Assembly: GCA_958295745.1 (NCBI GenBank)
Contig: OY282370.1
Coordinates: 372,001-436,000 of the forward strand
DNA from: an uncultured Acidimicrobiia bacterium
GTDB lineage: Bacteria > Actinomycetota > Acidimicrobiia > Spongiisociales > Spongiisociaceae
Reading direction: 5' to 3'
Length of the DNA stretch: 64,000 nucleotides
Part shown: in pieces, positions 19,368 through 44,620 of the stretch
Layout of the letters: each line of letters begins with the position of its first letter
How positions within the stretch are numbered: the stretch's first letter is position 1
Made by a program: the position numbers and the translations under genes
The notes under the pieces: model-generated
What the model saw: only the letters and a program-made list of their open reading frames with translations
What the model was told of the DNA's origin: nothing
Databases searched by the model: none

Positions 19368-19459
19368 GGTGCTGTCCACCAAAGTCGGACGGCCCACGCG
19401 GGGCATGAAACAGGAGCATATAACACCCTTGCTATCCTGACAGGTGCGAGAGACAGAGT

Positions 19460-21093: not shown

Positions 21094-21126
21094 GAGTAGG
21101 GTAGAGAGGTGAAGATGATTTCCGGC

Positions 21127-21190
21127 GGGGAAGAACAGACAGACAAGAACAGACGAACGGGGAAGAACAGACAGACAAGAACAGACGAAG
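21127..21190 (+). repeat. Two tandem copies of a 32 bp repeat in a leader
   Basis: Unit 1 (21127-21158) and unit 2 (21159-21190) are identical except for the last base. Each begins GGGGAAGAACAGACAGACAA and itself contains AGAACAGAC twice. They occupy the space between the permease stop and the RBS of the binding-protein gene, so they lie in its leader or intercistronic RNA. Confidence 0.9.
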
Positions 21191-21212
21191 CCCCGATGAA
21201 AGGAGCCGCGCC

Positions 21213-22412: not shown

Positions 22413-22416
22413 AAAG

Positions 22417-23286
22417 ATGGTTGCGGGGCTCTTCCGCCTGGCCGTCGCGCAGCCGCGCGCGGCGGGCGGGCCGGAGGCCGAATGCAACGTCGTCCGGGCG
22501 GCGGAACTGGCCGCCCGGGCGGCGCACATGGAGGCGGATCTGATCCTCTTCCCCGAAAGCTACCCGGGGCCCCTGCTGACCAGGCCCACCGACGTGTACG
22601 ATGCGGCGCCGGCCATGGCGTCCGCCGCCCGGGAGAACGGGATAGCGATCTGCTGGAGCCGCATGGAACGGTGCGGGGACGGCAACTACCGCTTGGTGGT
22701 ATACGCCGTGGACGACCGGGGCGGGCAGGTGATCCGTTACGAGCGCGCCCATCCCGCCACCCTGCCGCCCGACGAGACCAGGGTGTGGACGGCGCCCGGA
22801 GAGTCCCTCGGTCTGTTCGAGTTGGGCGGCGTGAAGATAGGGATCGTGGTGTGCTCGGAGCTATGGATACCGGAGCCGGCCAGGGTGCTGGCTCTGAGGG
22901 GCGCCCAGGTGATCCTGTCGCCCGCCGGGGGCCGCTTCACCTCCCTCACCGAGAACTGGCAGATCGTGGTGCGGGCCCGGGCGATAGAGAACCTGTGCTG
23001 CGTAGCCATGACCAACAACATCTGGGCGGACGAGACAGGCGCGGCGATGATCGCCGGACCGGAGCATGTGCTGGCCGAATCGGGTACCGATGAGATGCTG
23101 GCGGCGGACCTGGATCTCGACCGGGTGGAGTGGCTGCGGTCGCGGGACGATTCGATGGTGGAGCCTAAGGGGTTCTCCTCCATCCCCGGCCTGCTGCGGG
23201 CGAGGCGGCCGGAGCTGTACGAAGACCTGGTGAAACCGGGCGACGGCCTGTACGACTTCCATACTCCTCCCGGGGTCCGGCCATGA
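22417..23286 (+). CDS. Nitrilase-superfamily (carbon-nitrogen hydrolase) protein with altered triad
   Basis: 289 residues. Fold markers are AAHMEADLILFPESYPGPLL (catalytic Glu in FPES) and KIGIVVCSELWIPEPARVLAL (nucleophile Cys). At the place of the invariant catalytic lysine (usually Y-R-K-x-H) this protein reads RYERAHPATLPPDE, so Lys appears replaced by Arg. The rest, including AIENLCCVAMTNN, is well conserved. It may hydrolyse a carbamoyl or amide compound if Arg can substitute. It overlaps the following amidohydrolase gene as ATGA, so the two are translationally coupled. Confidence 0.85.
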   Translation: MVAGLFRLAVAQPRAAGGPEAECNVVRAAELAARAAHMEADLILFPESYPGPLLTRPTDVYDAAPAMASAARENGIAICWSRMERCGDGNYRLVVYAVDDRGGQVIRYERAHPATLPPDETRVWTAPGESLGLFELGGVKIGIVVCSELWIPEPARVLALRGAQVILSPAGGRFTSLTENWQIVVRARAIENLCCVAMTNNIWADETGAAMIAGPEHVLAESGTDEMLAADLDLDRVEWLRSRDDSMVEPKGFSSIPGLLRARRPELYEDLVKPGDGLYDFHTPPGVRP

Positions 23287-24647
23287 GCGGCGGCATCCTG
23301 ATACGCGGGCGTTACATCCTGACCTCGGCCGACCCGGACGTGATAGAGAACGGCGCCGTCCGGATAGTGGACGGGGTGATCGACTCCGCGGGGCCGTGGG
23401 GGGACCTGCGCGCCGGCCACCCCGACGATGAGGTGTACGGGAACACCGACGACATCATCACCCCCGGGTTTGTCAACACCCACAGCCATTTCTCCGAAGG
23501 CCTGACCACCGGAATCGGCGAGGAGTTCACCCTGTGGGAGTGGATAGCGAGGATCGTCAGCCCCATGGCGGGCCATATCACCCGGGAGATGGCGTACATG
23601 GGCACCTTGCTGGCCGGGATGCAGATGCTGCTGACCGGCATCACCACCGCCAACGAGATGTTCGTGTGCGACCCGGGCGACCCTCCGGTCACGCCGGGGT
23701 GTGTGGAGGCCTTGGACGAGCTGGGCCTGCGGGGGGTGGTGTCCTTCGGCGCCTCGGACGTACGGGGGCCGGACGTACGGGGGCCGGCACTGGAGGCGAT
23801 CCTGGAAGAGCACGCCGCCCTGCTGGAAGCGGCCGAGGCCAGCCGCCTGAGCCGGTTCCGGACGGGGATCGCGCTGCTGGATGCGCAGTCGCACGCTCTG
23901 ATGGAGGCTTCCTTGGATCTGGCCGCCGTCCATGGCAGCCACATACATCTCCACGAGGTGAGGGAGGAGGTTACGGCGGTCCGCTCGAAGACCGGGCGCT
24001 CCCCCATCGCCCAGTGCGCCCGCCTGGGGCTGTTCGGGGCGCCCACCCTCGCCGCCCACTGCATCTGGGTGGACGGGCACGACCGGGAGCTGCTGGCCGA
24101 ACACAACGTGGGGGTGGCCCACAACCCGGTCTCCAACATGATCCTGGCGTCCGGCGTGTGCCCGGTTCCGGAGCTGCGCCGGCTGGGGGTGAACGTGGGC
24201 ATCGGCGTGGACGGACCGGCCAGCAACGACCGCCAGGACATGCTCGAGGCGATCAAGCTGGCGCCCCTGCTGCAGCGGGTGGACAGTCTCCAGGCCACCG
24301 CCCTCTCGGCCAGGGACGCGCTGACGATGGCCACCATCGAAGGCGCCCGCTCCATCTGTATGGAGGACGAAGTGGGTTCTATAGAACCCTCCAAACAGGC
24401 CGACCTGGTGGTTTTCGACGGTTCCTCCCCCGCCCTGGCCAATATCCACGACCCCTTCCAGGCAGTCGTCTACTGCGCCGGACCGCGGGACGTAACCGAC
24501 GTGTGGGTAGCCGGGGAAAGATCAGTCGCCGACGGAAAGATCGTCAACGTGGACCCGAACGAGGTGGTCCAACGCTCGCGCCCCCTCGCCCGGAAACTGG
24601 CCCGCCTCGGCGAGCTGAGCGACTATTCGGTCCTCGCCCGAGCCTAA
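23283..24647 (+). CDS. TRZ/ATZ-family amidohydrolase (SAH/guanine deaminase-like)
   Basis: 454 residues. Metal ligands of the mononuclear deaminase subgroup are present: PGFVNTHSHFSEG (HxH), the His pair in HIHLHEVREE, LAAHCIWVD and the Asp of GIGVDGPASNDRQDM. The C-terminus ends with the usual GSIEPSKQADLVVFD. Such enzymes hydrolyse amino or chloro groups from purines, triazines or S-adenosylhomocysteine. A short in-frame duplication gives VRGPDVRGP near residue 160. Its stop codon overlaps that of the convergent mscS gene by 4 bp. Confidence 0.9.
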   Translation: MSGGILIRGRYILTSADPDVIENGAVRIVDGVIDSAGPWGDLRAGHPDDEVYGNTDDIITPGFVNTHSHFSEGLTTGIGEEFTLWEWIARIVSPMAGHITREMAYMGTLLAGMQMLLTGITTANEMFVCDPGDPPVTPGCVEALDELGLRGVVSFGASDVRGPDVRGPALEAILEEHAALLEAAEASRLSRFRTGIALLDAQSHALMEASLDLAAVHGSHIHLHEVREEVTAVRSKTGRSPIAQCARLGLFGAPTLAAHCIWVDGHDRELLAEHNVGVAHNPVSNMILASGVCPVPELRRLGVNVGIGVDGPASNDRQDMLEAIKLAPLLQRVDSLQATALSARDALTMATIEGARSICMEDEVGSIEPSKQADLVVFDGSSPALANIHDPFQAVVYCAGPRDVTDVWVAGERSVADGKIVNVDPNEVVQRSRPLARKLARLGELSDYSVLARA

Positions 24648-25966: not shown

Positions 25967-27940
25967 TCAAAGAGGGCCGGTCAATGCGGCGGACAACACT
26001 TCGAGGAAGCGGTCTATGTCGGAACGCTCCACTACCAGCGGGGGGGCTACCCGGACGGTTCCCGCGGAGTTGAGCATCGAACCCACCACCACCCCCCTCC
26101 GTTCCATGTCCTCGACAAGCGGCTGGGCCATCTCCGCCGGGACCAAGTCGAAGGCGCACCACAGGCCGAGGCCTCTCACGGCGGCGATGGCGCCGGGGCG
26201 CCGCTCCCCCACCTGACGGAGGCCGTCCCGCAGGTATTTACCCATCTCCCGGGAACGCTCCACCAAGCCTTCGCTCCGGATCACGTCGAAAGCGGCGACA
26301 GCCGCCGCGCACGAGACCGGATTGCCTCCGAAGGTGGTGAGGTGGGACAGGGGCGGATCGAGGAAAGTAGCGAATATCTCCTCGGTCGAGACGAACGCGC
26401 CGAGCGGGAGGCCGCCGCCGAAGGCCTTGGCCATGGTTATCACATCCGGCGTCACCCCCCAGTTCTGGCACGAGAACCACCGGCCGGAGCGGCCCATCCC
26501 CCCCTGCACCTCGTCGCATATCAGCAGGGCGCCCCGCTCGGTGCACAGCTCCCGCAGACCGGGCAGAAAACCGTCCGACGGGATCCGCACCCCTCCTTCT
26601 CCCTGGATCGGCTCGACGATGACCGCCGCGATTTCCTCGTTGATCGCCGCGTCCGCCGCGTCCAGATCGTCGAAAGGCGCGAACCGCACCGGCTCCAGCA
26701 ACGGCTCGAAAGGCTTACGCCACGCCTCCTTCCAGGTAACCGACAAGGAGCCGAAGGTGCGTCCGTGGAACGACCGCTCGAAGGCTACGAAACCCGGCCG
26801 CCCTGTGTACTTGCGGGCCAGCTTCAGGGCCCCTTCGGTGGCTTCGGTCCCGGTGCTGGTCAAAAAGGCCACGTCCAGGCCACCCGGGGTCACCGACGCC
26901 AGACGGCGGGCGATCTCCACCTGCGGCGGCAGGGTGAACCGACCGTACACATCGACGTGGGCGAAGCGGTCCAGCTGGTTCTTGACCGCCTCTACGACCG
27001 CCGGGTGGCAATGCCCCAGGTTGGAGACCCCGATCCCCGAGATCATGTCCAGCAGGATGCGGCCATCGGCGGTCTTGAGCGAACATCCGGCGGCGTCCAC
27101 CACCACAGTGCCCTTGATCCCCGGCACCGTCTGGGAGAGGTGCTTCACGAAGTCGGTGCGGTAACGGTCCGCCTCCTCCTCGGACATGACCGGCCTGGTG
27201 TCGAGCTGCTTCACTCCGGTCGGTCCGATCCGCTCCCGGTCTCCCCGACCACTGACGCCGCCGGTCGGCTTTCCGTAGGCGCGAAGGAACCAGGCCTTGG
27301 CCCGGACCAGCTCGGCGTCCGAATCCCCCAGCCGCCTCGCCCAAGCCGATTCATCCCGGTCGGTCGGGGCGAGACCGGCCCGGCGGGCCTGAACCACCAC
27401 CCGGGCCCGTTCCTCCAAGAACCAGAGGCGGGAGGCTGCCTCGAGAAGATCCCCTCCCACCGACAGGCATCCGTTGGCCTGCAATATCACCGAATGGCCG
27501 CCTCCCAGGGTGCGGGCCACCGCCGCCGCCTGCTCCGGCGTCTTGACCAGCTCGATGTCGGGATGGACCGGAACCGCCGCCCCGCTCATCCCGCCCAGCC
27601 CGTGCATCAGCGGAAGCTCCTCGGCGCCCGTTCCCCACACCGCCGTGTAAGGCGGATGGCCCCGGCAGACGGCCGCCGCGTCGGGGCGGGCCCGGTAGAC
27701 GGCGGCGTGCATCGGGGTTTCCATCGGGAGGGCGTCCACAGGTCCCGCCGCCGGACGGCCGCCCCTCACCTCGATGACGTCCTCGGCCCTCGCATCGAGC
27801 ATGGGTGCGGTGCTGGTGATCAGGAACCCGGTCGGGGTCCTGGCCGAGACATGGCCGAAGGCCTCTACCAAACCGGCGGCGGCCAGCATCCGGGCTGTCG
27901 AGGCCACGTCCTCCCGCCGGACCGCCGGCGCGGCGTTCAC
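25967..27940 (-). CDS. Class II aldolase fused to class III aminotransferase
   Basis: 657 residues in one frame from a GTG that overlaps the upstream stop as GTGA. Residues ~1-200 are a class II aldolase/adducin domain (SARTPTGFLITSTAPMLDAR; HAAVYRARPDAAAVCRGHPPYT; VILQANGCLSVGGDLLEA). From ~250 a complete class III (acetylornithine/GABA type) aminotransferase follows: DMISGIGVSNLGHCHPAVV, FERSFHGRTFGSLSVT, LLICDEVQGGMGRSG and the PLP lysine in VITMAKAFGGGLPLGA. The linker (~205-245) shows no break. One polypeptide could cleave or decarboxylate an aldol and transaminate the product. Substrate unknown. Confidence 0.85.
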   Translation of the reverse strand: MNAAPAVRREDVASTARMLAAAGLVEAFGHVSARTPTGFLITSTAPMLDARAEDVIEVRGGRPAAGPVDALPMETPMHAAVYRARPDAAAVCRGHPPYTAVWGTGAEELPLMHGLGGMSGAAVPVHPDIELVKTPEQAAAVARTLGGGHSVILQANGCLSVGGDLLEAASRLWFLEERARVVVQARRAGLAPTDRDESAWARRLGDSDAELVRAKAWFLRAYGKPTGGVSGRGDRERIGPTGVKQLDTRPVMSEEEADRYRTDFVKHLSQTVPGIKGTVVVDAAGCSLKTADGRILLDMISGIGVSNLGHCHPAVVEAVKNQLDRFAHVDVYGRFTLPPQVEIARRLASVTPGGLDVAFLTSTGTEATEGALKLARKYTGRPGFVAFERSFHGRTFGSLSVTWKEAWRKPFEPLLEPVRFAPFDDLDAADAAINEEIAAVIVEPIQGEGGVRIPSDGFLPGLRELCTERGALLICDEVQGGMGRSGRWFSCQNWGVTPDVITMAKAFGGGLPLGAFVSTEEIFATFLDPPLSHLTTFGGNPVSCAAAVAAFDVIRSEGLVERSREMGKYLRDGLRQVGERRPGAIAAVRGLGLWCAFDLVPAEMAQPLVEDMERRGVVVGSMLNSAGTVRVAPPLVVERSDIDRFLEVLSAALTGPL

Positions 27941-28968
27941 TGTTCTTCCAGCCAGTCCGTCAGATGCGTCAGGCTCTCCGGCAGTCCGAGAGGGGTGTCG
28001 TTGCCGTCCCCGCGGGCGTAGACGGCCCGCACCGCCCCCGGCGAATCCCGGCGGCCCTCTGCCCGGAGCCGGCGGGCGAGCCGTTCGCGGGCGTCTGCGA
28101 GCTGTTCTTTGATGGGCATGACGGTGACCAGCCCCGGCGCCCCGTCCAGCACCCCGACCAGGCGGACCGGACCCTCGGTGCCCAACCGGGACTGGGGCAG
28201 GCCGTCCGCCTTGCGAAAGGCGCGGTCGGCGAGGAAGCTGCGGTGGGTGAGCCCCGGCGAGACCCAGGCGCCGATCGCCGAATATGAGGGGGCGAGCCGC
28301 ACCAACGCCGCCCTGATCACATCTGCCAGCAGGTTGTGGGTTTCGGCGTAGGCCTGCCGCTCGCCCGGCCCCCAACGCCACCGCCCGTCGCTGAGGGGGA
28401 CGGCGGTGCAGTCCGGGCGCTCGGGCGACACCGAAGTTCCCCTCGCCTCGAAGAGCCCCGGATCGTCGTAGGAGGCGGCCGGGCTGGGGCGGCCCCTCCA
28501 GTAGCAGATGTGTTCGTAGGGGACCAGGGCGAGCGGCTCCGACATGACGAAGCGGTCGAGATACACGTCGCCGCGGCGAAGCGGCCCGTCATGCAGCACC
28601 TCGGGGGTCTCGCCGTCGTCCAAGAATTCGGAAAGCGTCTCCGGCGCCGTCGAGTCCCCTTCGGGTTTCCAACCGGCTTCCAGCAGGGCGCCGTTGATGG
28701 CCCGGTGTTCCCGGCTGGTGGAGTAGGGCTTGTACTTGGTGCAGGGAATCAGCAACGCCGCCCGCCTGGCGCCTTCGGCGGCGGCCGGGGGTTCCCACTC
28801 TTCGGCGATGAAGGAATGAAAAGCCTCGACATCGGGATGCTCCATACCGTCCAGGTTGTCCTGCGGCGAGTAGAAGCGGAGGGAGAGGTCGAGCTCGAAC
28901 GGCGGGCGTATCTTGCGGGACGAGTCGGACAGCCGCGCCTCCTTGGGGTCTATTCGGAGAATGGTCAT
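27937..28968 (-). CDS. DUF5591-like protein (archaeosine synthase-related domain)
   Basis: 343 residues. The most recognisable motif is AALLIPCTKYKPYSTSREHR with a following AINGALLEAGW, close to the 'PCSKxKPYSxSxxH' signature of the DUF5591 domain found in archaeal tRNA archaeosine synthase. Other parts (FVMSEPLALVPYEHICYW; HRSFLADRAFRKADGLPQSR) I do not recognise. It overlaps both neighbours by 4 bp, so it is made together with the DUF1989 protein and the aldolase-aminotransferase, a context of amino or urea-like catabolism rather than tRNA modification. The function is open. Confidence 0.55.
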   Translation of the reverse strand: MTILRIDPKEARLSDSSRKIRPPFELDLSLRFYSPQDNLDGMEHPDVEAFHSFIAEEWEPPAAAEGARRAALLIPCTKYKPYSTSREHRAINGALLEAGWKPEGDSTAPETLSEFLDDGETPEVLHDGPLRRGDVYLDRFVMSEPLALVPYEHICYWRGRPSPAASYDDPGLFEARGTSVSPERPDCTAVPLSDGRWRWGPGERQAYAETHNLLADVIRAALVRLAPSYSAIGAWVSPGLTHRSFLADRAFRKADGLPQSRLGTEGPVRLVGVLDGAPGLVTVMPIKEQLADARERLARRLRAEGRRDSPGAVRAVYARGDGNDTPLGLPESLTHLTDWLEEQ

Positions 28969-29588
28969 GAGTCTCTCCCTTCGGGTTGCTCATCCCGCAC
29001 CCTCATCAGCATCGCGGTGGGGTTGAAATCGTTGCAGGGGGTGAGATCCTGGGGGCAGGAGGACAGCAGCACCACCAGGTCCTCGTGGGCGCGCAGCGTG
29101 ATGGTTGCGCCCGCCTCGTGCGCGGCCGGATCCGTCACCACGCCCCCCTCGTCGGTAACCCGGTTGTGCATGAACACGTTCCAGGCCATCTCACCGGCCA
29201 GATCGAAGTCCTCCCCCAGCAGGTCGCGGCCTTGTTCGAGGTTCCCCAGGCAGTGCCCGTGATCGTCCAGCCCGTAGTCGCGTTCGAAACGTTCGTGGTC
29301 GCAACAGGGAACGATGATGTCGTGGCGCTCCACGTCGTCCCGCACGATCGTGAACACCGGGTTGCGGCGGTTGGAGAAAACCTGCGATCCCGTCCCGAGT
29401 GCGATCGAGGCGTTGCAGGAAACGGTGTGGGTCGGCGACAGATACTCGGACGGATCGTTGCGGAACCAGGCGATCAGATCCCCTACCTGGCGGCCTTCGA
29501 GGTCGACGATGTCGAGCATCTGCCCCTCGTCTACATAGACACCCCGCCCCTCGCGGGCCGGGACGACGACTTCGTTTGGTTGGTTCAT
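28965..29588 (-). CDS. DUF1989 (urea carboxylase-associated family) protein
   Basis: 207 residues from an ATG with AGGAG at ~6 nt; an upstream in-frame TTG is rejected. Features: VVVPAREGRGVYVDEGQMLDIVD, split around the conserved EGQ, DLIAWFRNDPSEYLSPTHT, VCCDHERF-like VPCCDHERFERDYG, AWNVFMHNRVTDEGG and the C-terminal SSCPQDLTPCNDFNPT that supplies cysteine ligands in this family. Members accompany urea carboxylase or are glycine-cleavage-T-like amine-processing proteins; the reaction is not settled. First gene of a three-gene overlapping operon. Confidence 0.9.
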   Translation of the reverse strand: MNQPNEVVVPAREGRGVYVDEGQMLDIVDLEGRQVGDLIAWFRNDPSEYLSPTHTVSCNASIALGTGSQVFSNRRNPVFTIVRDDVERHDIIVPCCDHERFERDYGLDDHGHCLGNLEQGRDLLGEDFDLAGEMAWNVFMHNRVTDEGGVVTDPAAHEAGATITLRAHEDLVVLLSSCPQDLTPCNDFNPTAMLMRVRDEQPEGRDS

Positions 29589-29882
29589 CGGCAACTCCTA
29601 GAAATGCTATTCGGGCAGGCCGCCCCCTGCAGGATAGGTTGGCGAGGCAGGAGCAATGCGGACTCAGGGTAAACCATCCACACGCCGCAACTTCGAGATG
29701 GGCGTGACCGGAGGCGCCGGCGGCTCCACCTTCGACCCGGCGGGTTCTTGCCCACCGGGCCCTCGTCTCCTATATACATAGAGGCCGGTTAGCATGAGTC
29801 CTGTACTCGTGTGAGGAGAGGAGAGGCGTATGGCGGCGGCGCCGGACGGTCCGGAAAGAAGCCAGATTGCTCGAAGCAGACG

Positions 29883-31736
29883 GTGAAAACCCTTGCCATC
29901 GCCCTCGTTACGTGCCTGGTGATACCTAGTTGCGGCGATTCTCGAACCGCTGACCCGCCTCTGGAGTCATACGTGGAGCGGGGAGAGTACGCGGTCGGTA
30001 TGAGGGCGCTCTACTTCCACGATCCGACCCGGCAGTTCGACAGTTGGAACGCCGCCCACGCCTCCGACGGCTACAAGGCGGTCCTGAGGGAGATCAACGA
30101 CGCAGGCGAAACCCAGATAGTCGCCGCGCACGTGTGGTATCCGGTCGACGATCCCGGCTCGGCGCGCCAAGCAACCCTCGACGATTTCGCGGACAGCATC
30201 AGCCAGACGTTCCGCAACCAGTACGAGTTCGGCTCGATGTTCTTTCTCGCCAACCTCGTAGACGCAGAAGGTCAGGCCATCTTCTCGAACCCGGCGGCGA
30301 TGCCGTCGATCCTGGCAGAGGCGAGGGAACGGCTTGTCGACGCCTACTACCAGGCCCCCATAGCGGAGGGCAGCTTTCCGGTGATCATCGCGGCGCACGG
30401 ACTGGGGGGGAACTCGTTCGGGTGGACGGCGTTCGCGGAGTACCTGGCAAGCCACGGCTATGTGGTGGTCGCTCCGAGCTTCATCTCCGACAGCTCGCTG
30501 CCGAACGTGCTGGACAGCCCCGATTCCAGGTACGCCCGGGCATCGGACGCAGCGGCGGTCGACAGGGCGTACCAGACGATCCTCGGTGAGTCCAAGGTGA
30601 TACCCGGCTTCTACAAGTACTTCTTCGGTGAGGAGCAGCCCGGATTCGGAGGCCCGGGCGGATCCGGGGAGCCAGGCGGATTCGGAGAACCGGGCGGATC
30701 CGGGGAACCGGGCGGATTCGGGGAACCGGGCGGATCCGGAGAACCGCCGGACCAGGCGGAGCAGCCGGGATTCGAAGGGCCGGAGGGGATGCGTGCGCTA
30801 CCGGGCGGGGCCCGGAAGGTGGGCGAGATGATGGGTGAGTTCTTCACGCAGCGGGTGGCCGACGTGGAGACCGTCATCGACGGCCTGTCCAGCCTCAATG
30901 AGAGCCTGGATTCGTGCTCCTCCGAATACACGGCGCAAGGTCAACCGGTGCACGGCGCCGAAGTGTGCGGCTTCTTCTCCGACGCCCTCGACGTCGAGAA
31001 CATCGGCGTCATGGGGCACTCTCTCGGTTCGATGACCGCGCAGTTCACCGTGGCGAGCAACGAAAAGGTCGCCGCGGCCGTCGGCTACAACAACGGCCCG
31101 CCCCGCTATTGGGAACCTGCGGGCATCTTCGGCGGAGGCGCCGCCGAGGACGGTCAGCCCGCCGGAAGCTCCAGGCCGGTCATGCAGATCCACGGTTCTG
31201 AAGACGCCTTCGTTCAGGGTGTATTCCGCGGCCTGATGTGGAACACCTACATTGCGGCGGGCGGCAACCCGGAGGACATCTGGCTGCTCGAACAGGAAAG
31301 GGTCCCGCCCACCGATGAGAACCCTCAGCCGATAGCGAGGAACGCATACAACCGGGCCACCGGCGACAAGGTGATCATCTCGGTCAAGGACGTGAACCAC
31401 GGCTTGCTCGTAGACGACTTCACAGCCGTGTTCTCCGAACAGAATCCCCTGGAGGTGGACGGCCGGAGGTACTGGAGCGCGGCGCAGCCGATTCCGAGGA
31501 AGGCCGTGGGCCAGGACGTTCTCGACCCCGCATTTCGGGGTGCGCCGTACACGCCCCTGGCCTGGGACACGGTGGGCGGCAGCGAGGTCTACATGCCGAT
31601 CTTCATACGGAACTACTTCACGAAGAGCTGGTTCGACTACTACCTCAAAGGAGACGAGAGCGGGCTCAGGTTCACCGAGAACCCGATCGAGGAAACGGGC
31701 CTGCTGGACATCCGCAGCGACCTGCCCGATAGGTAG
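29883..31736 (+). CDS. Alpha/beta-hydrolase lipoprotein with Gly-rich hexapeptide repeat
   Basis: About 617 residues from GTG 29883, chosen because it places a short signal peptide and lipobox (LVIPSC) at the start. Hydrolase features are the oxyanion region PVIIAAHGLGGNSFGW, nucleophile Ser380 in GVMGHSLGSMTA, an acid in HGSEDAFV and the catalytic His in DVNHGL. This resembles PAF-acetylhydrolase/dienelactone hydrolase-like secreted enzymes but is longer. An insertion of five GGSGEP/GGFGEP hexapeptides precedes the nucleophile. It is likely anchored outside the membrane and acts on esters. The RBS is weak. Confidence 0.78.
   Translation: MKTLAIALVTCLVIPSCGDSRTADPPLESYVERGEYAVGMRALYFHDPTRQFDSWNAAHASDGYKAVLREINDAGETQIVAAHVWYPVDDPGSARQATLDDFADSISQTFRNQYEFGSMFFLANLVDAEGQAIFSNPAAMPSILAEARERLVDAYYQAPIAEGSFPVIIAAHGLGGNSFGWTAFAEYLASHGYVVVAPSFISDSSLPNVLDSPDSRYARASDAAAVDRAYQTILGESKVIPGFYKYFFGEEQPGFGGPGGSGEPGGFGEPGGSGEPGGFGEPGGSGEPPDQAEQPGFEGPEGMRALPGGARKVGEMMGEFFTQRVADVETVIDGLSSLNESLDSCSSEYTAQGQPVHGAEVCGFFSDALDVENIGVMGHSLGSMTAQFTVASNEKVAAAVGYNNGPPRYWEPAGIFGGGAAEDGQPAGSSRPVMQIHGSEDAFVQGVFRGLMWNTYIAAGGNPEDIWLLEQERVPPTDENPQPIARNAYNRATGDKVIISVKDVNHGLLVDDFTAVFSEQNPLEVDGRRYWSAAQPIPRKAVGQDVLDPAFRGAPYTPLAWDTVGGSEVYMPIFIRNYFTKSWFDYYLKGDESGLRFTENPIEETGLLDIRSDLPDR
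30657..30746 (+). repeat. Five 18 bp in-frame repeats (36 bp higher-order period)
   Basis: The units alternate GGCGGATCCGGGGAACCG-like and GGCGGATTCGGGGAACCG-like, coding GGSGEP and GGFGEP in turn. The array lies inside the lipoprotein hydrolase gene and keeps the reading frame whatever the copy number. Confidence 0.93.
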
Positions 31737-31775: not shown

Positions 31776-32972
31776 CTATACGTGGGCCGATCCCGGGAGC
31801 TCTCCGACATCGGGCGTGACCGTAACCTGGCGCGCCGCGGCCGGGGTGTTGCGGCTGCGCAGCGCCCTCACCCGTCCGTCGATGATCACCGCACCGATGC
31901 CGGGTATGTCGCCGCGGGCGAGCGACCCGAGGGCGTCGCCCCCGTACGACCCCCAGGGGGCGTCGGCTATCACCAGGTCGGCGGGGCGGCCCGCCTCGAT
32001 CTTCCCTGCTTCCAGCTCGTACACGTCGGCGGTTGCTCCCGAGGCCCAAGCCCACACCACCGCCGGATCGGCGCCGGTGAGCGACGACAGCTCCGCCATG
32101 GTCTTGATCACCCCCAGCGGCATGACTCCGGTGCCGGTCGGAGTGTCGGAACCGATGATCACCCGGTGCTCGGCGCCGTGCTCCAGTACGGATTCGACGA
32201 TGCGGACGGCGCTGCGCAGGTTGCCGGCTTGGACGATCTGGAGCACCAGGTCGGTGGAGGCGATGATCTCCTCCAGCCCGTCGTCGTCCAGCGAGGTGGG
32301 ACCGCCGTTTATGTGGCCGCACACATCGGGGCGGAGCAGCATGAGGTGCTCGGCGGTGATGGGCTTGGAGCCGGGGATGGAGGCGCCTCCCGAGTGGCAC
32401 ATGACCCGGATGCCCACCTCTTGGGCGGCCCGGACCTGGGGAAGGCCGTCGGCCGGATCGTCGTACAGCCCGAACCCGAACTTGGCGAGGCGGATTCCCT
32501 GATCGGCCATGTACCGGAAGTGGCCTTCCTCCAGGGTGGGTTCGAGCACCACCGCACCGGCGTGCACCTTCATGCCGTTGGGCCGGTAGTTGCTCCACGA
32601 CCGCTGGGCGAGGACGGCCAGAGCCATCACTCCGTGGGCGTCGTGCGGCCGGCCGGGGGCGTGGATCTCGCCGGGCGAGATCGCCTGGGTGATCCCCCCG
32701 TGCACATAGGAGCTGAGGAAACCGACCGTGTTCTGGCGGGGGGTGTAATCCCCGATCACCACATGGCAGTGTGAGTCGACGAGGCCCGGCCCTACGGTGG
32801 CCCCGTTGGCGTCTATCACCTGGTCGGCGTCGTCGAACCCGAGCCCCGACCCTACGGAGGCGATCAGCCCGTCCTCGATGAGCAGGGAGTCTGCTTCGAT
32901 CACCGGCCGGGCGAGGTCGCCGGTGACCAGCGCCCCGATGTTTACCACCGCGGTGAGCTTCGGCCCCTCCAC
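31776..32972 (-). CDS. Enamidase-like amidohydrolase
   Basis: 398 residues, GTG start 3 bp after the preceding stop. Amidohydrolase metal motifs: GPGLVDSHCHVVIGDY, MKVHAGAVVLEP, the His of VMCHSGGASIPGSK, GHINGGPTS and the Asp of IIGSDTPTGTG. The AVVNIGALVTGD start and GDYTPRQNTVGFLSSYVHGG segment recall enamidase of anaerobic nicotinate breakdown, which opens a cyclic enamide. Last gene of a four-gene operon with an isochorismatase-like hydrolase and a hydantoinase-like protein, consistent with heterocycle ring opening. Confidence 0.85.
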   Translation of the reverse strand: MEGPKLTAVVNIGALVTGDLARPVIEADSLLIEDGLIASVGSGLGFDDADQVIDANGATVGPGLVDSHCHVVIGDYTPRQNTVGFLSSYVHGGITQAISPGEIHAPGRPHDAHGVMALAVLAQRSWSNYRPNGMKVHAGAVVLEPTLEEGHFRYMADQGIRLAKFGFGLYDDPADGLPQVRAAQEVGIRVMCHSGGASIPGSKPITAEHLMLLRPDVCGHINGGPTSLDDDGLEEIIASTDLVLQIVQAGNLRSAVRIVESVLEHGAEHRVIIGSDTPTGTGVMPLGVIKTMAELSSLTGADPAVVWAWASGATADVYELEAGKIEAGRPADLVIADAPWGSYGGDALGSLARGDIPGIGAVIIDGRVRALRSRNTPAAARQVTVTPDVGELPGSAHV

Positions 32973-32975
32973 CGG

Positions 32976-33557
32976 CTAGATCAGCCCGTCCTCGCCTACC
33001 GCGTCTTCGGGGGCCAGACCGCCCAGGCGGGCGTTGGGGCGGCCCCGGTTGGCCGCCGCCACCGCCACCACCACCTCGTCGGGCCGGGGGGCGTCGCCCG
33101 GGTACAAGGTGGCGGCGTCGTAGTGGTCCCGCACGTAGAGGGCGTCCTTGTGGGCGAGCGGAATGGTGATGGGCGTTCCCGCAGGGCCGGTGATGGTGGC
33201 GGACGACATCCAAGCCACCCCGCCCCCGACCTTCTCCCGGAACGGATCGGCGAAGGCGGTCGAAAGGAACATCACCACGTGCTCCTGCGATCCGTCGAGC
33301 CCGGCGATGCCGCCCTTGCCGTAGGAGAGCACCGGCGCACCGATGGCTTCCACGACCATCTCTCCGAGCCGGGCGCCCAGACCGGCGGAGAACTCCACCG
33401 CCGCCGACAGATCATCGTGATAAGCACCCGCGTAGGGGTTGTGGATGACGGCGGCTACGACCGCCTTGCGGAGCGGAGGGTCGGCTGCGACACCTTCCCG
33501 GCTGTGCTCCTCCTCGGTTTGGACGATGAACTTGCGGAACGGGAAGGCGGCGTTCAT
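32976..33557 (-). CDS. DUF1185 / 'amino acid synthesis' family protein
   Basis: 193 residues from the ATG that overlaps the upstream stop as ATGA. Recognisable segments are FRKFIVQTEEEHSREG, VVAAVIHNPYAGAYHDD, GARLGEMVVEAIGAPVLSYGKGGI and VWMSSATITGPAGTPITIPLAHKDALYVR-like text ending AHKDALYVRDHYDA. This small family sits in catabolic operons and its reaction is not established. Here it lies between the isochorismatase-like hydrolase and the enamidase-like gene, so it may handle a ring-opened intermediate. Confidence 0.82.
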   Translation of the reverse strand: MNAAFPFRKFIVQTEEEHSREGVAADPPLRKAVVAAVIHNPYAGAYHDDLSAAVEFSAGLGARLGEMVVEAIGAPVLSYGKGGIAGLDGSQEHVVMFLSTAFADPFREKVGGGVAWMSSATITGPAGTPITIPLAHKDALYVRDHYDAATLYPGDAPRPDEVVVAVAAANRGRPNARLGGLAPEDAVGEDGLI

Positions 33558-34315
33558 CCGGACCCCTCCCGGGCGGCCGCGGCGGACGGCGGATAGGTGC
33601 GGTCGAAGAGGCCGGGCGGCAGGCCTTCCAGATAGGAGAGGACATCGCCGAGGTCGGTTACGTCCACGTACTTCATGTGCAGGTCGAAAAGGGCGATCTT
33701 GTGGGACACCTCGCCCCGGTCGAAGACGGCCTCGTGGGGGATGGTCACCCTGAAGTCGTAGGACAGGGCATCGACCGCGCTGGCCCGCACACAGCCGCTG
33801 GTGGTAGTGCCGGTGAGGATTAGCGAATCGGCGCCCATCATGTTCAGGTGGCTGACGAGGGGGGTGCCGAAGAATGCGGAGGGCTTGCGCTTCTCGATGA
33901 ACAGGTCGCCCTCCTTCGGCGCCACCTCGGCCACGATCTCGTTGCCCTTGTGGCCCATGACGTCCACTTCGTCCTCGGCCCGGGTGCTCTTCAGCGACCA
34001 CACGCCCAGATCGAATCCGTCGGGCCGCCGGGGGTTGGTGGTGTAGATGATCGGAAGCCGCTTCCGGCGGGCGGCCTCGAGTATCCGCCGGATGGCGGGG
34101 ATGCCCCGCTCCCAGGCCGCCGGTCCGCAGGAATACCGCCATCTCCTGATCGAGTCGAGGATCGGCTCGGCCCGGTCCCCGCAGAAGTTGTAGTTGACAT
34201 CGATCACCATGACCGCCGGGCGCTCCCCGTATCCGGCCCGCCTGCCCCAACCGGCCTCGGCGAAGACCGTCCGATCGGTTTCGGTGAGAACGTCGTCCCA
34301 GACCGCCACTTTCAA
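33554..34315 (-). CDS. Isochorismatase-family cysteine hydrolase
   Basis: 253 residues, TTG start within a GGGGAGG-TTGA overlap with the upstream stop. Catalytic triad of the family: Asp in AVMVIDVNYNFCGD, Lys in LFIEKRKPSAFFGTPL and nucleophile Cys in LTGTTTSGCVRASAVDAL. The extra N-terminal ~35 residues and the NPRRPDGFDLG segment resemble N-carbamoylsarcosine or maleamate amidohydrolases. It should release ammonia (or CO2 and ammonia) from an amide or carbamoyl group in the same ring-opening pathway as its neighbours. Confidence 0.88.
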   Translation of the reverse strand: MKVAVWDDVLTETDRTVFAEAGWGRRAGYGERPAVMVIDVNYNFCGDRAEPILDSIRRWRYSCGPAAWERGIPAIRRILEAARRKRLPIIYTTNPRRPDGFDLGVWSLKSTRAEDEVDVMGHKGNEIVAEVAPKEGDLFIEKRKPSAFFGTPLVSHLNMMGADSLILTGTTTSGCVRASAVDALSYDFRVTIPHEAVFDRGEVSHKIALFDLHMKYVDVTDLGDVLSYLEGLPPGLFDRTYPPSAAAAREGSG

Positions 34316-35919
34316 CCTCCCCTGACGCCCCTGTATCGGGTGGTCTCGGCAGAGAAACCCGGGCGCACGAAATCGTCGGCCAGCCAGCGGTCGGTGAGGG
34401 CCGCCCGCACCGGGCTGGTGTCGATGACCTGGCGCTTGGGGCGCAGGGAGCGCGGCTGATACCGGCCGCGCGGTTCCCCCACCGGCCGCATCCCCGGCGA
34501 GTCATCGGCCCACTCCGCGCTGACCTCGCCGCGCAGGATGGTCATGACGGGCCAACCGGTGAAGGTGTGGCCTTCCATGATCGACCAGCCCGAACGGGTG
34601 TTGATGTGCTCCTTGCCTACGGTGACCTCCCGTCCGAGGTCGATGATCACGAAGTCGGCGTCGAACCCCGGCAGCAGCGACCCTTTCTTCCCCCACAGGC
34701 CGGAGGTCTTGGCCGGGTTCTCGCTGCTGACCTGCACCGCCCGCTCCAGGCTGATGCGGCCCTTGTTGACGCCCTCGGAGAGAAGCACGGGCAGGAACAG
34801 CTCCACCCGTGAGAACCCGGTGCGGCAATCCCATATGACGGGGTTGTACATCTCTTCGTGGGAGGTAGGCTCCCATCCCACCACGTGGTCGGAGCCGACC
34901 ACGTCCACGATCCCCTCGGCCAGCGCCACCCACAGCGCTTCTATGTTGTCCCGGCGGCGGAGAGGCACGTTGATGCGCCAGCCGTATTCCGGTTCGGCCC
35001 ACAGCCAGGGCGGGCCGGTCTGGGCGTAGAGCTCCAGCCCCTCGGCGCGGGCCCTGGCCACCTCCTCGAAGGAGAGCCTGGTGGTGCAGTGCTGCAGGTA
35101 GAGCGGCACGCGGCCGGGGGTCTGCATGGCGAGGTATGCGTAGGAGCGGATGTGATGCGCCTCCATGAAATCGGGCGACCGGTCCGTCCAGGAACCGAAG
35201 TCGGTCCTGCCTCCGGCGCGGAGCCGTTCCTCGAAGATCCGGCCGATCTCCCAGTTCTCCGGATGGATGTGGACGATTCCCGGGTAGCCGAGGTGCGCCG
35301 TTTCCTCCATGACCATGAACACGGTGCCGTCGTCGATGCCGGTCCCCAGCCCGGCCCGCCGTGAGGGCCAGTTGGTGTCGTCGTCGTCGGACATACCCTT
35401 CATGGAACGGGTCTGGAGGTACAGCTTGAAGGATGTGACCCCGTGCTCCTCGGCGTACTGGGGAATCTCCCGGGCGTGCTGGTCGGTTTCGACCATGTAG
35501 GTCAGGTAGGCGTCTACGTGGCTGTGCTCGTTTATGACATCCCGCCCCGAGGGGAAGGACTCGTTGAAGGAGACCACATCGGCCCTGGCCACCACCTCTT
35601 TGAACGGTTTGGTTCCGAGGCGGGTGGTCGGGGCCTGGATGCCCCAGGTGGTGATGCCGGCCGCGGCGGCCGCCCTCGATTCGGTTTTCATGTCGTAGTC
35701 GAAAGGCACGTAGCAGCCGGGATGCGCCTCGGAGTCGATGACGCCGGGCAGCACGTAGTTGCCCTTGGCGTCGATGGTGCGGGCCGCGGCGGGGAGCATC
35801 TCCTCGGTCGCCAGCACCGCCACCTTGCCGTCCTTGACCCCCACCCCCACCCTGTAGCGCCCTCCCCCCAACACCACCGTCCCGTTGATTACCGCCAGAT
35901 CGAGGGGCGCGCCCGCCAT
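34312..35919 (-). CDS. Hydantoinase/dihydroorotase-like amidohydrolase with altered metal motif
   Basis: 535 residues, ATG with CGGAGG. Cyclic-amidohydrolase pattern: YVLPGVIDSEAHPGCY, VTSFKLYLQTRS with the lysine that is carboxylated in this family, IVHIHPENWE, QHCTTRLSFEEVARARAEG, VDVVGSDHVVGW and GSLLPGFDADFVIIDL. Where the canonical enzyme has H-x-H after the first beta strand this protein has Glu64-Ala65-His66, so one metal ligand is changed. First gene of the operon; its promoter region faces the palindromic element of the divergent regulator gene. Confidence 0.86.
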   Translation of the reverse strand: MAGAPLDLAVINGTVVLGGGRYRVGVGVKDGKVAVLATEEMLPAAARTIDAKGNYVLPGVIDSEAHPGCYVPFDYDMKTESRAAAAAGITTWGIQAPTTRLGTKPFKEVVARADVVSFNESFPSGRDVINEHSHVDAYLTYMVETDQHAREIPQYAEEHGVTSFKLYLQTRSMKGMSDDDDTNWPSRRAGLGTGIDDGTVFMVMEETAHLGYPGIVHIHPENWEIGRIFEERLRAGGRTDFGSWTDRSPDFMEAHHIRSYAYLAMQTPGRVPLYLQHCTTRLSFEEVARARAEGLELYAQTGPPWLWAEPEYGWRINVPLRRRDNIEALWVALAEGIVDVVGSDHVVGWEPTSHEEMYNPVIWDCRTGFSRVELFLPVLLSEGVNKGRISLERAVQVSSENPAKTSGLWGKKGSLLPGFDADFVIIDLGREVTVGKEHINTRSGWSIMEGHTFTGWPVMTILRGEVSAEWADDSPGMRPVGEPRGRYQPRSLRPKRQVIDTSPVRAALTDRWLADDFVRPGFSAETTRYRGVRGG

Positions 35920-38012: not shown

Positions 38013-38603
38013 ATGAACCCGGCCGCTGATATCCCCGCCTCGGTGCGGAGCGAGCTTCTGGACCTGCTCGACGAGGTGAGGAGCCTGCCCGATGAGCGTC
38101 CTGACGATGCTCACTCCCGCATCACCGTGGTGGAGGCCATCGAAACCGGGCTGGAGGGGAACGCCTCCATTGGGGCGCTGATCGCTGACCCGGACGGACG
38201 GGTGGTGTTGAGCGAACGGAACCGTATGTTCTTCCCCCGGTTCCGCAGCGACCTCCATGCCGAGATGACCCTATTGACCAGGTACGAGAACGAACATGCC
38301 CCTAAGGCCGACCTGCGTGGCCATACCCTGGTCACCTCCCTCGAGCCGTGCGAGATGTGCACGATCCGCATCATCAACTCGGGCGTGACCAGCTGCCTGT
38401 ACGTGGCCTCGGACCTGGGGAAGGGGGGCATCACCGGCCCCAACCGGCTCGCTCCGCACTGGGCGCGGCTGGCCGAGCACCAGAACTTCGCGGCCGCCGA
38501 TTGCTCCGACCGCCTGGCGGAGATCAGCCTGGCGGCCTTCGAGGCCACCATCGGGGGGGTGATCCGGAAGCTGATGGCCCGGCGGCTTCTCGAAGGATCG
38601 TAA
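38013..38603 (+). CDS. Cytidine/deoxycytidylate deaminase-family protein
   Basis: 196 residues, ATG with AAGGAAGGA. Zinc motifs of the CDA fold: the His and catalytic Glu in SDLHAEMTLL and the Cys pair in TSLEPCEMCTIRII. Spacing fits the nucleoside or guanine deaminase/TadA-like branch. The C-terminal ~40 residues are helical and unassigned. It may be controlled by the palindromic element upstream. It lies 7 bp ahead of the DUF2165 gene and is probably in an operon with it. Confidence 0.87.
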   Translation: MNPAADIPASVRSELLDLLDEVRSLPDERPDDAHSRITVVEAIETGLEGNASIGALIADPDGRVVLSERNRMFFPRFRSDLHAEMTLLTRYENEHAPKADLRGHTLVTSLEPCEMCTIRIINSGVTSCLYVASDLGKGGITGPNRLAPHWARLAEHQNFAAADCSDRLAEISLAAFEATIGGVIRKLMARRLLEGS

Positions 38604-38610
38604 GAGACCC

Positions 38611-39117
38611 GTGGACGCCGCTGTCCCTGCCGCAGAGATCGTCTTCCGACTGATCCCCCTGCTCCTTCTCCTGGGGACCGCCCTCATGGGCGCCGTCGTC
38701 TGCCTCAACAACATCACCGCCCCTGGTGCGAACCTCGCCTTCGTCCGGCACGTCATGACGATGGACACCACCAACATGGACCCCGGCACCCAATGGCGGG
38801 AGGTGCGGTCGCCGGCCTTGCATCGGGCCGCGTTCATCGCCATGCTCGTGTGCGAGATCGCGGTTACGGTGCTGGGCCTGTTGGGCAGCTATTTCCTGGC
38901 CGTCAACCTCACCGCGGCGGACGGGGCCTGGGAATCAGCCAAGCTGTTCGGCTACCTCACCTTCCTGATGGCCCTAGTCGTGTGGTTCCTGATCATCCAG
39001 GTGGTCGGGGCCGAGTGGTACGTCAGCTGGCAGTCCGAGAAGTGGAACGCCATCCGCGACTCCATCCGCATCAACCTGATCACCATCGCCGGGATAATCA
39101 TCCTCCGCCTCTCCTGA
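38611..39117 (+). CDS. DUF2165-like integral membrane protein
   Basis: 168 residues, GTG start. About four hydrophobic helices: ~10-32, ~73-97, ~110-130 and ~148-165. The motif VCLNNITAPGANLAFVRHVMTMDTT, split across the first loop, and EWYVSWQSEKWNAI match the predicted small membrane proteins of DUF2165. Function unknown. It converges on the phosphotriesterase-like gene. Confidence 0.8.
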   Translation: MDAAVPAAEIVFRLIPLLLLLGTALMGAVVCLNNITAPGANLAFVRHVMTMDTTNMDPGTQWREVRSPALHRAAFIAMLVCEIAVTVLGLLGSYFLAVNLTAADGAWESAKLFGYLTFLMALVVWFLIIQVVGAEWYVSWQSEKWNAIRDSIRINLITIAGIIILRLS

Positions 39118-42691: not shown

Positions 42692-44551
42692 ATGACCAAA
42701 CATCGATTCAGGGCATTGTCAGGGCTGTTGCTCGTGTTCGCCCTGGTAGCCGCGGCGTGCGGCGGCGGGGACACGACCGCGGCGGACAACGAAGCCGCTG
42801 CGGCGCGGGCAGAGGCGGCCACGGCCCAAGCGCAGGCCGACGCCGCCCAAGCGGAAGCCGACGCCGCCCAGGCGCAGGCTGACGCCGCCGAGTCCGCCCT
42901 AGCCGAGGCCCAATCCGAGATGGAAGCAGCACAGGCGGCGGCCACCGAAGCCATGGAGGGAGACGAGGCATCCCAGGCGGCCCTGGCCCAAGCCCAAGCA
43001 GCCCTGGAAGAAGCCGAGCAGGCCGCAGAGGAAGCCCGGATGGCCGCCGAAGCCGCCGAGGCCGAAGCCGTAGCCGCGACCTCCACCACCATGGCGCCGC
43101 CCATGGAGGAAATGGTCGAGATCGTGGTCTCGGAAGACAGCGACATCTTCAACTTCGATCCGAAGAACTCCGCCGGGGGCGAGTTCGACGCTCCGGTCTT
43201 CACCACCGTGTACGAGGCCCTCGCCTGGACCTCCCCCTCGGGTGATGTGCTGCCCCGGCTGGCCACGGACTGGACCATCTCGGAGGACAAGAAGACCTAT
43301 ACGTTCAACCTGCGCCAAGGAGTCGAGTTCCACAACGGGGATCCCTTCACCGCCGATGACGTGGTCTACAGCGTCAACCGGGCGGTCGCCCAGGGCATCC
43401 CGATGGTTCAGCAGCGGGCCCAGAACCTGGAGAGCGTGACCGCGGTAGACGACTACACCGTCGTCTACCAGCTGAGGGAACCGTCCACCGCTTTCCTCCT
43501 CAACATCGCGGACACCACCGGACTGGGATTCTCTTCGATCCTCACCTCGTCGGCGCCCGCACACGGGACCGCGCCGGTGGGAACCGGGCCGTTCCGGTTC
43601 GTGTCGTATGTGCCCGGCTCCGAGCTGGTGCTGGATGTCAACCGCGACTACTGGGACTCTTCGGTGCTGCCGGACTACGACCGTCTGCGGGTGAGGATCA
43701 TCAAGGAGGACGCCACGATGGTGGCGGCGCTGCGGTCCGGCGAGGTGGCGCTGATCCATCCCACCTCCACCGCCACCGCCCGCAGCCTGCGGGACGACCC
43801 CGACTTCACCATCGTGGACACACCTTCGCGCACCTTCTGGATCCACGCCAGCAGGGTGGGGAAGACCCGGGACGAGGCGGTGGTCAAGGCGCTCTGGCTT
43901 TCCATGGACCGCCAGGCCTTGGCCGACATCGCCTTCCTCGGGGAGGCCACGCCGTGGTCGACCGCCCATCCGCTGGTGGAATACGCCCTCGGACCCGACG
44001 ATCTGCCCAACTACCAGCGGGATGTCGAGGAGGCCAAGCGGGTATTGGCCGAGGCCGGCTACTCCGACGGGATCGAGCTCGAATTCGTCTACCCGACCCG
44101 GGTTCCTTACGAAGACGTGTTCTTCGAAGTCCTCCAGGCATCGTGGGCAGAAGCCGGGATCACGGTGACGCTCAACCCGGTCGAGCAGGCGGTCTGGATA
44201 CCGAAGCTCATCAACGCCGACTACGACCTTTCCGCTACCGACCAGGGCTGGTACTCCAACCCCTACCGGTATGTGCTGCCCCGGACCGGATGGCAGGCGC
44301 CGCCGGAGGAGATACTTCCCGACCTGATCCCCGAGCTGGCGGCGTTGGCCGCGGCGACGCAGGAGGAGCGCCCGGAGATCTTCCAGAGGATCCAGAGGCT
44401 CGAGGCCGAGAACGTATACCCGTACGCCGGAACGGTCTACGCCAACGCGTCGCACGTCTACCGATCCGACCTGATCTCCGACGCCGACCTAGGCACCTAC
44501 ATCACGGGTGACAAGCGGGCCCTGTACCTCTCCCTGGCGCCGGCCGGATAA
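42692..44551 (+). CDS. Peptide/nickel-type ABC substrate-binding lipoprotein with coiled-coil stalk
   Basis: 619 residues, ATG with AGGAGGAAGC. Signal peptide and lipobox LVAAAC (Cys23). Residues ~30-129 are an Ala/Glu/Gln-rich heptad coiled coil without proline, broken only by a GDE at ~90. Then a STTMAPP linker and an SBP_bac_5 domain: PVFTTVYEALAWTSPSGDV, LPRLATDWTISEDKKTYTF, LRQGVEFHNGDPFTADDVVYS and VGTGPFRFVSYVPGSE. It should capture oligopeptides or similar ligands for the Dpp-type transporter genes that follow. The stalk is not part of the known SBP_bac_5 architecture. Confidence 0.9.
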   Translation: MTKHRFRALSGLLLVFALVAAACGGGDTTAADNEAAAARAEAATAQAQADAAQAEADAAQAQADAAESALAEAQSEMEAAQAAATEAMEGDEASQAALAQAQAALEEAEQAAEEARMAAEAAEAEAVAATSTTMAPPMEEMVEIVVSEDSDIFNFDPKNSAGGEFDAPVFTTVYEALAWTSPSGDVLPRLATDWTISEDKKTYTFNLRQGVEFHNGDPFTADDVVYSVNRAVAQGIPMVQQRAQNLESVTAVDDYTVVYQLREPSTAFLLNIADTTGLGFSSILTSSAPAHGTAPVGTGPFRFVSYVPGSELVLDVNRDYWDSSVLPDYDRLRVRIIKEDATMVAALRSGEVALIHPTSTATARSLRDDPDFTIVDTPSRTFWIHASRVGKTRDEAVVKALWLSMDRQALADIAFLGEATPWSTAHPLVEYALGPDDLPNYQRDVEEAKRVLAEAGYSDGIELEFVYPTRVPYEDVFFEVLQASWAEAGITVTLNPVEQAVWIPKLINADYDLSATDQGWYSNPYRYVLPRTGWQAPPEEILPDLIPELAALAAATQEERPEIFQRIQRLEAENVYPYAGTVYANASHVYRSDLISDADLGTYITGDKRALYLSLAPAG

Positions 44552-44562
44552 TCGAAGCTGAC

Positions 44563-44594
44563 GATCCGGGGGAGGCCCGGCCCTCCCCCGGATC
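44563..44594 (+). terminator. 13 bp hairpin after the first stalked binding protein
   Basis: GATCCGGGGGAGG (44563-44575) pairs perfectly with CCTCCCCCGGATC (44582-44594) across a 6 nt loop. It lies between the binding-protein stop and the ATPase RBS, where a partial terminator or mRNA 3'-end stabiliser would raise binding-protein output. Confidence 0.75.
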
Positions 44595-44620
44595 CCGAAT
44601 CATCGTTCCCTTTGGAGGTC

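Follow-up and report, generated by a model that had tools for sequence, protein, structure and literature searches.

What kind of substrate calls for two ring-opening amidohydrolases, an amide hydrolase and a DUF1185 protein encoded in immediate succession? The question is raised by four consecutive genes within a 64,000-nucleotide stretch (hereafter, the window; contig OY282370.1 of assembly GCA_958295745.1, positions 372,001 to 436,000) from an uncultured Acidimicrobiia bacterium. An earlier inspection made without database searches (the sequence-only reading) had described them as a four-gene operon for opening a heterocycle. We tentatively propose, at a little under even confidence, that these genes encode the hydrolytic core of an island that breaks down an amino-substituted N-heterocycle, with a fused bicycle resembling guanine as the likeliest substrate. 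All four open reading frames lie on the minus strand of the window:

34312-35919, minus strand: HYD, a cyclic amidohydrolase, hydantoinase-like (535 amino acids, aa; Pfam Amidohydro_1/3), with an ExH-K-H-H-D metal site
33554-34315, minus strand: ISO, an isochorismatase-fold amidase (253 aa; Pfam Isochorismatase), with Asp39-Lys144-Cys175
32976-33557, minus strand: DUF1185, also termed AA_synth (193 aa; Pfam PF06684); nearest solved relative 2QTP
31776-32972, minus strand: ENA, an enamidase relative (398 aa; Pfam Amidohydro_1/3; 2VUN match), with an HxH-K-H-H-D site including Lys164

Coordinates and sequence agree with the junctions first described: HYD and ISO meet at TTGA (34315-34312), ISO and DUF1185 at ATGA (33557-33554), and a 3-bp gap separates DUF1185 from ENA (TAG-CCG-GTG). 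The description of two ring-opening-type amidohydrolases with an amide hydrolase is likewise borne out by family matches, the amide hydrolase being of the N-carbamoyl type. In the literature searched, mostly outside subscription journals, no described pathway with an enamidase, hydantoinase and isochorismatase set was found, in line with the earlier remark that the combination does not match the nicotinate, pyrimidine or hydantoin pathways. What is new about the island is best sought in how known enzyme families are combined; it is not a system of a new kind.

The same gene set recurs elsewhere. After eleven loci were dropped (repeats of contigs already counted, or the window itself), linkage was counted with identity thresholds chosen for each protein. 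Among 27 de-duplicated HYD loci, ISO adjoins HYD on the same strand in every one, and the genes in view include DUF1185 (26 loci), ENA (23), DUF1989 (22), an ArcS/DUF5591-like protein termed ARCS (22), aldolase (19), class III aminotransferase (15), amine oxidase (12), deaminase (11), O-methyltransferase (9), aldehyde dehydrogenase (ALDH; 8), and a BMP protein (7). The loci in which ENA (L039, L050, L051, L148) or DUF1185 (L104) was not seen lie on short contigs or stretches, and do not establish true absences. All four genes are present in 22 loci, from Actinomycetota (20, including the window and its kin), Chloroflexota (L100), and Pseudomonadota (L141). Because 22 loci hold the whole set and HYD and ISO are same-strand neighbors in 27 of 27, the set is beyond chance; conservation extends well beyond four genes, and the operon as first delimited sits within an island that spans at least about 18 kb. 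Closer to the window, 26 of 149 sampled relatives have a DUF1185 match, and the full four-gene run occurs in 11 of 14 sampled genomes of the same family, with one more leaving its contig inside ENA; the exceptions are one genome (G005) with only another type of DUF1185 and one (G002) without a match. Four loosely annotated genes thereby become a conserved cross-phylum set with a testable reaction order.

HYD shares the fold family of the D- and L-hydantoinases and dihydropyrimidinase, and to that extent the label hydantoinase-like stands. Its nearest solved structure is the L-hydantoinase 1GKR (3.6e-48), with D-hydantoinases also near, and alignment with 1K1D and 1NFG places K165, H219, H277, and D344 at the (carboxylated) Lys, two His, and Asp of the binuclear site. 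The label fits less well in two respects: the score of 188.6 bits against the hydantoinase/dihydropyrimidinase family TIGR02033 is below the cut-off (393.25), and the first His of the HxH pair is replaced, leaving E64 and H66. We take the HxH ligands to be defining for hydantoinases and dihydropyrimidinases, and HYD instead has ExH. The ExH-K-H-H-D pattern occurs in all 26 readable de-duplicated HYD copies, down to 50% identity (35 of 36 rows with duplicates included, the remaining row, L141, beginning within the gene), and the stretch EAHPGCY is invariant across 13 aligned copies. HYD is rare (at E <= 1e-80, 12 of the 296 class genomes contain it), and its predicted model is weak (mean predicted local distance difference test score, pLDDT, 68; from 13 sequences). 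Two other genes of the same genome pass TIGR02033 (558.8 and 556.0 bits), which speaks against HYD as the genome's dihydropyrimidinase. Uracil or thymine was set aside as an unlikely substrate because an ordinary dihydropyrimidinase lies elsewhere in the genome, 90 bp from a methylmalonate-semialdehyde dehydrogenase (MMSDH; 722 bits), both over their cut-offs.

The best solved matches of ISO are N-carbamoylsarcosine amidohydrolases (E 5e-32 and 2e-30). It has the isochorismatase fold and Asp-Lys-Cys triad (D39, K144, C175) in common with these enzymes and with BiuH and RutB, and differs from them in being coupled to an unusual hydantoinase-like protein; its scores of 54.6 bits (BiuH cut-off 370) and 42 bits (RutB cut-off 378) are both far below family level. 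The triad is found in 36 of 39 ISO rows; the Asp is unreadable in one further row, and two remote rows of group B carry Arg in the triad comparison.

The enamidase-like assignment made for the last gene of the run is upheld by its match to the solved nicotinate enamidase 2VUN over nearly its full length (E 1.1e-104, residues 7-383). ENA retains the HxH, His, His, and Asp of 2VUN, and has Lys164 at the position of the bridging Glu; it differs further in its partner genes and in the lack of a nicotinate-type hydroxylase in the window. Across 50 ENA rows, the bridge position is Lys in 39 full and two partial copies, Glu in seven, and unreadable in two. The Lys and Glu types are split by one branch with support of 100/100 (28 versus 7) in a tree of 35 rows, from which L050, L083, L095, L152, copies with a match of at most 330 residues, and duplicate contigs had been left out, and in which the long Glu row L058 was flagged as unsure. 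The Glu-type copies are the seven XDH-linked ones. Since Lys-type copies also occur outside HYD islands (in Thermomicrobium roseum, Rhodococcus USK13, Agrobacterium vitis, and Mariluticola), the Lys type is not specific to the HYD pathway. ENA is predicted to hydrolyze a cyclic enamide, freeing a formyl acid. The core thus includes two amidohydrolases with altered metal ligands, one ExH and hydantoinase-like, the other Lys-bridged and enamidase-like. A second enamidase/DUF1185 setting, with subunits of a molybdenum cofactor (MoCo) hydroxylase and an ENA with the Glu bridge, is seen in L041-L046, L048, and L058, several of which also have a luciferase-like monooxygenase and ALDH; the setting has the appearance of a pyridine- or pyrimidine-type pathway not yet characterised.

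DUF1185 matches AA_synth (PF06684) with 187 bits against a cut-off of 27, and its nearest solved relative is 2QTP (1e-39). The gene is usually found near enamidase-like genes, and also in unrelated clusters. Among 25 plasmid records bearing an ENA relative, 20 have DUF1185 within 10 kb of it; AP027375 does so only if the record is circular, another record has DUF1185 24 kb away, and the plasmids of Haloarcula GH36, Prescottella equi, and Rhodococcus qingshengii have no DUF1185 annotated within 9 kb. The family is broader than ENA (312 versus 25 plasmid records), and its tie to enamidase-like enzymes makes the role of an uncharacterised family assayable with a defined partner. In L039, L040, and L100, DUF1185 adjoins an aldehyde dehydrogenase, which in L040 is over the MMSDH cut-off (460 versus 448.5). 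One report describes the homolog TgnF as stimulating succinate-semialdehyde oxidation in trigonelline breakdown (PMC7913881). Together, this adjacency and the TgnF report suggest that DUF1185 may be a helper at an aldehyde stage. TgnF and HcdD (7-hydroxycoumarin breakdown) are DUF1185 proteins in catabolic gene sets according to the same source (PMC7913881), as in the island, where the partner of DUF1185 is instead an enamidase and the other steps differ. Two further settings were observed: on a Thermomicrobium roseum plasmid (L054), the DUF1185-enamidase pair lies by a molybdopterin subunit, a ring-hydroxylating dioxygenase, a short-chain dehydrogenase/reductase, and enoyl-CoA hydratases, and so belongs to another pathway; in Sulfitobacter sp. 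CB2047 (L058:5878-7043), two tandem DUF1185 genes stand beside a UPF0280 protein and a MoCo hydroxylase.

Around the core, the island in the window comprises the following features:

38013-38603, plus strand: DEAM, cytidine/deoxycytidylate-deaminase-type, the divergent HYD neighbor in the window's family
29811-31736, plus strand: alpha/beta-hydrolase-like gene between ENA and DUF1989; inserted, not seen in the relatives examined
28965-29594, minus strand: DUF1989 (PF09347), distantly like urea-amidolyase-associated proteins
27937-28968, minus strand: ARCS, ArcS/DUF5591-like, with a PC-x3-KPY-x2-S-x2-H motif; its model matches AF0587 (2Q07; Z 11.1)
25967-28381, minus strand: a single open frame with class II aldolase (about 27242-27961) and class III aminotransferase (about 25970-27241)
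23283-24647, plus strand: TRZ/ATZ-type amidohydrolase, a probable deaminase of heterocycles that reaches the cut-off of no named deaminase family
22417-23286, plus strand: carbon-nitrogen (nitrilase-superfamily) hydrolase
21213-22412, plus strand: 399-aa protein with no Pfam match, a probable ATP-binding cassette (ABC) substrate-binding protein, assigned by position
20233-21093, plus strand: ABC permease (BPD_transp_1)
19460-20236, plus strand: ABC ATPase
18339-19406, minus strand: HDAC-like amidohydrolase (PF00850)

In most same-family relatives, ENA is followed directly by DUF1989, ARCS, class II aldolase, and class III aminotransferase; ENA and DUF1989 are adjacent in most of the relatives examined, and the window holds these genes at 25967-29594, behind the one inserted opposite-strand gene. 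In genome G004, type III CRISPR genes (RAMP, Cmr2/Cas10; L029:6483-11887) lie at the same ENA/DUF1989 joint. DEAM is the divergent neighbor of HYD in ten same-family relatives and is displaced by one gene in the window. The upstream part of the 25967-28381 frame overlaps ARCS and is probably non-coding; aldolase and aminotransferase form one frame without a stop in the window and L028, and are separate genes in L030 and others.

The second block (18339-24647) belongs with the four-gene core, because DUF1185 and ENA flank most of it in Actinocorallia (L097), where the order is HYD, ISO, DUF1185, ATPase, permease, binding protein, carbon-nitrogen hydrolase, TRZ/ATZ, ENA, DUF1989, ARCS, with second-block proteins at 49-61% identity to the window copies. 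In L089, ENA, DUF1989, and ARCS are followed by relatives of all six second-block proteins, and the transporter, carbon-nitrogen hydrolase, and TRZ/ATZ genes lie next to ARCS in several further loci. Among named cultures, Actinocorallia sp. API 0066 and Mycolicibacterium austroafricanum carry all or some of the island. The linked transporters, deaminases, and ArcS-like protein thus narrow the substrate class, as the sequence-only reading had hoped linked genes would.

In ARCS, C76, K80, P81, Y82, S85, and H88 are invariant in 38 rows (8 copies having been aligned first), and the other Pro of the motif is kept in 90% or more of them. The motif is known from work on archaeosine synthase (ArcS), an enzyme reported to leave the free preQ0 base untouched (PMC11298593); the literature searched, mostly outside subscription journals, gave no description of the motif. 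The archaeal AF0587 chain has the same pattern, and DUF5591 family matches occurred in three archaea among 14 control genomes. Against PF17884, ARCS scores 25.0 bits (cut-off 26) alone and passes the cut-off with its neighbors. Its AlphaFold model (pLDDT 93) superimposes on 2Q07 (AF0587) with Z 11.1 and a root-mean-square deviation of 2.5 over 137 aligned residues by VIA-align on Foldseek candidates, while the next structural match has Z 5.2, and uracil-DNA-glycosylase-fold and tubulin chains lie at about 5. Foldseek itself returned no match for the model at E <= 0.001 (best E 0.69), and AF0587 was not among the 50 matches listed. The ArcS family cut-offs are missed by a wide margin (28 versus 600 and 23.9 versus 440 bits). 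Judged by motif and model, ARCS is a DUF5591-type protein; it shares the motif and domain fold with ArcS and AF0587, and differs from ArcS in being a free-standing bacterial protein of 343 aa within a catabolic island. The archaeosine-synthase domain is thereby placed in bacterial catabolic islands.

ARCS occurs in 4 of 296 genomes of the phylum, and an alignment scan of 84,980 named species genomes yielded 76 loci. Another 43 loci, mostly from Alphaproteobacteria, have an HpaB-like monooxygenase (26), TRZ/ATZ (25), an FAD protein (25), amidase (24), an 8-oxoguanine-deaminase-type protein (16), class III aminotransferase (11), a PuuE-like protein (10), and ALDH (8); some gene calls, including those at the 43 loci, came from a frame-composition picker with known mis-picks (e.g., the window's DUF1185 was replaced by an antisense frame). 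These alphaproteobacterial-type clusters (L105-L145, L056, L151) have the look of an oxidative route toward a guanine-like compound; it is mainly for this reason that a guanine-like substrate is favored. One stretch, L141, unites both ARCS settings; its TRZ/ATZ protein, alongside HYD-ISO-DUF1989-DUF1185-ENA and ARCS, is over the 8-oxoguanine deaminase cut-off (615 versus 532), as is the TRZ/ATZ protein beside ARCS in Rhizobium ACO-34A (618 versus 532). The BMP (PnrA-like) ABC protein in view in seven of the 27 HYD loci was also counted in favor. In a gut Firmicute, a Lachnospiraceae metagenome-assembled genome (L143), ARCS stands beside a BMP-type ABC transporter, with the four genes not in view.

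From the enzyme families, key residues, and cross-phylum linkage, we infer the following reactions, their order, and the substrate class. The ABC transporter would import the substrate, and a TRZ/ATZ-type and/or cytidine-deaminase-type protein would remove an exocyclic nitrogen. HYD may then open a pyrimidinedione-like ring to an N-carbamoyl (ureido) acid, from which ISO would take off the carbamoyl group. ENA could hydrolyze the remaining (cyclic) enamide and so release an aldehyde, namely a 2-formyl acid of the kind known from nicotinate breakdown, to be disposed of by aldehyde dehydrogenase or transamination, possibly with the help of DUF1185. A fused bicycle is suggested because two ring-opening enzymes in succession fit one. 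The relatives of DUF1989 presumably include carboxyguanidine deiminases, a kind of enzyme that would be apt for an amidine group.

Several observations weigh against this proposal. The ExH site of HYD may do other chemistry. The window's deaminases reach no family cut-off, and only 2 of 13 tested TRZ/ATZ copies pass that for 8-oxoguanine deaminase (261 versus 532 for the window copy). A search with copies from other loci found no ALDH, XDH, or BMP relative in the window, and none of the eight HYD loci with ALDH in view belongs to the window's family. The scheme assigns no secure role to DUF1989, ARCS, aldolase, or the HDAC-like protein. The authors of the report on TgnF saw no such stimulating effect with their own DUF1185 homolog, HcdD (PMC7913881), which counts against generalizing the TgnF role to other DUF1185 proteins; the earlier statement that DUF1185 has no settled role is incomplete in view of the TgnF lead.

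A narrower form of the proposal, which we consider improbable, is that the island serves the hydrolytic breakdown of 7-deazaguanine-type tRNA bases (preQ0, archaeosine, or queuine-like). A nitrile or amidine side chain would be dealt with by ARCS together with the carbon-nitrogen hydrolase or DUF1989. The deaminases would take off the 2-amino group, and HYD and ISO would dismantle the pyrimidinedione ring by way of a ureide; the leftover aminopyrrole-derived lactam would then be opened by ENA to a 2-formyl acid. The same literature search, again with subscription journals mostly outside, gave no described gene set for 7-deazaguanine catabolism. If this case held, ARCS would be the first example of the archaeosine-synthase domain at work in bacterial catabolism, and a natural recycling of modified tRNA bases would be shown.

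Of the readings that depart from a guanine-like bicycle, the one that survives best, itself rather unlikely, is a monocyclic pyrimidine such as the amino-methylpyrimidine of thiamine, which would be deaminated and oxidized at its side chain before ring opening by HYD, amidine cleavage by DUF1989 or ISO, and splitting of an N-acyl enamine by ENA. If ENA acted on an acyclic enamide, there would be a parallel to vitamin B6 breakdown; a malonate-semialdehyde-type ALDH is present in L040, and ABC binding proteins of the NMT1/THI5-like type are found in L076, L141, L148, and L149, although such proteins bind many other ligands. However, ISO groups with carbamoyl hydrolases, which calls for a 2-oxo rather than a 2-methyl ring, and a single ring needs fewer than two ring-opening amidohydrolases.

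Less probable again is a nicotinate-like or pyridine pathway, in which ENA would open a tetrahydropyridone while HYD and ISO handle a side amide. In L041, L045, L046, and others, ENA relatives do have a MoCo hydroxylase, a luciferase-like monooxygenase, and ALDH as neighbors, and in Mariluticola an FAD monooxygenase and succinate-semialdehyde dehydrogenase. This pathway was nevertheless set aside, as no MoCo hydroxylase or luciferase-like relative was found in the window, the XDH-linked ENA copies form the separate Glu branch, and HYD is present in none of the MoCo hydroxylase-linked ENA loci.

Doubtful to a further degree is an ordinary hydantoin- or creatinine-type use, with HYD opening a hydantoin, ISO removing the carbamoyl group, and the other genes as chance neighbors: the nearest relatives of HYD (L- and D-hydantoinases) and ISO (N-carbamoylsarcosine amidohydrolase) would fit, but HYD misses both the hydantoinase cut-off and the first metal His, and the other genes recur in 22-26 of 27 loci. 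Equally doubtful is an island that makes or detoxifies a compound, with the flavin amine oxidase (12 of 27 HYD loci) and O-methyltransferase (9 of 27) as tailoring enzymes, since the island consists mostly of hydrolases, deaminases, and importers, and the pair is dispensable because the window's genome has no close amine oxidase copy (best 28%). On these same counts, the pair was dropped as core steps of the proposed pathway.

Additional genes of the window have relatives at the cassette in its family. The DUF2165 membrane protein (38611-39117) and the binding protein of an oligopeptide-type ABC system (42692-47657) both have relatives that adjoin the cassette. A protein with no Pfam match is encoded at 60659-62059, 25 kb away here; in several genomes of the family, its relative (87% over 467 aa) is found close to the cassette.

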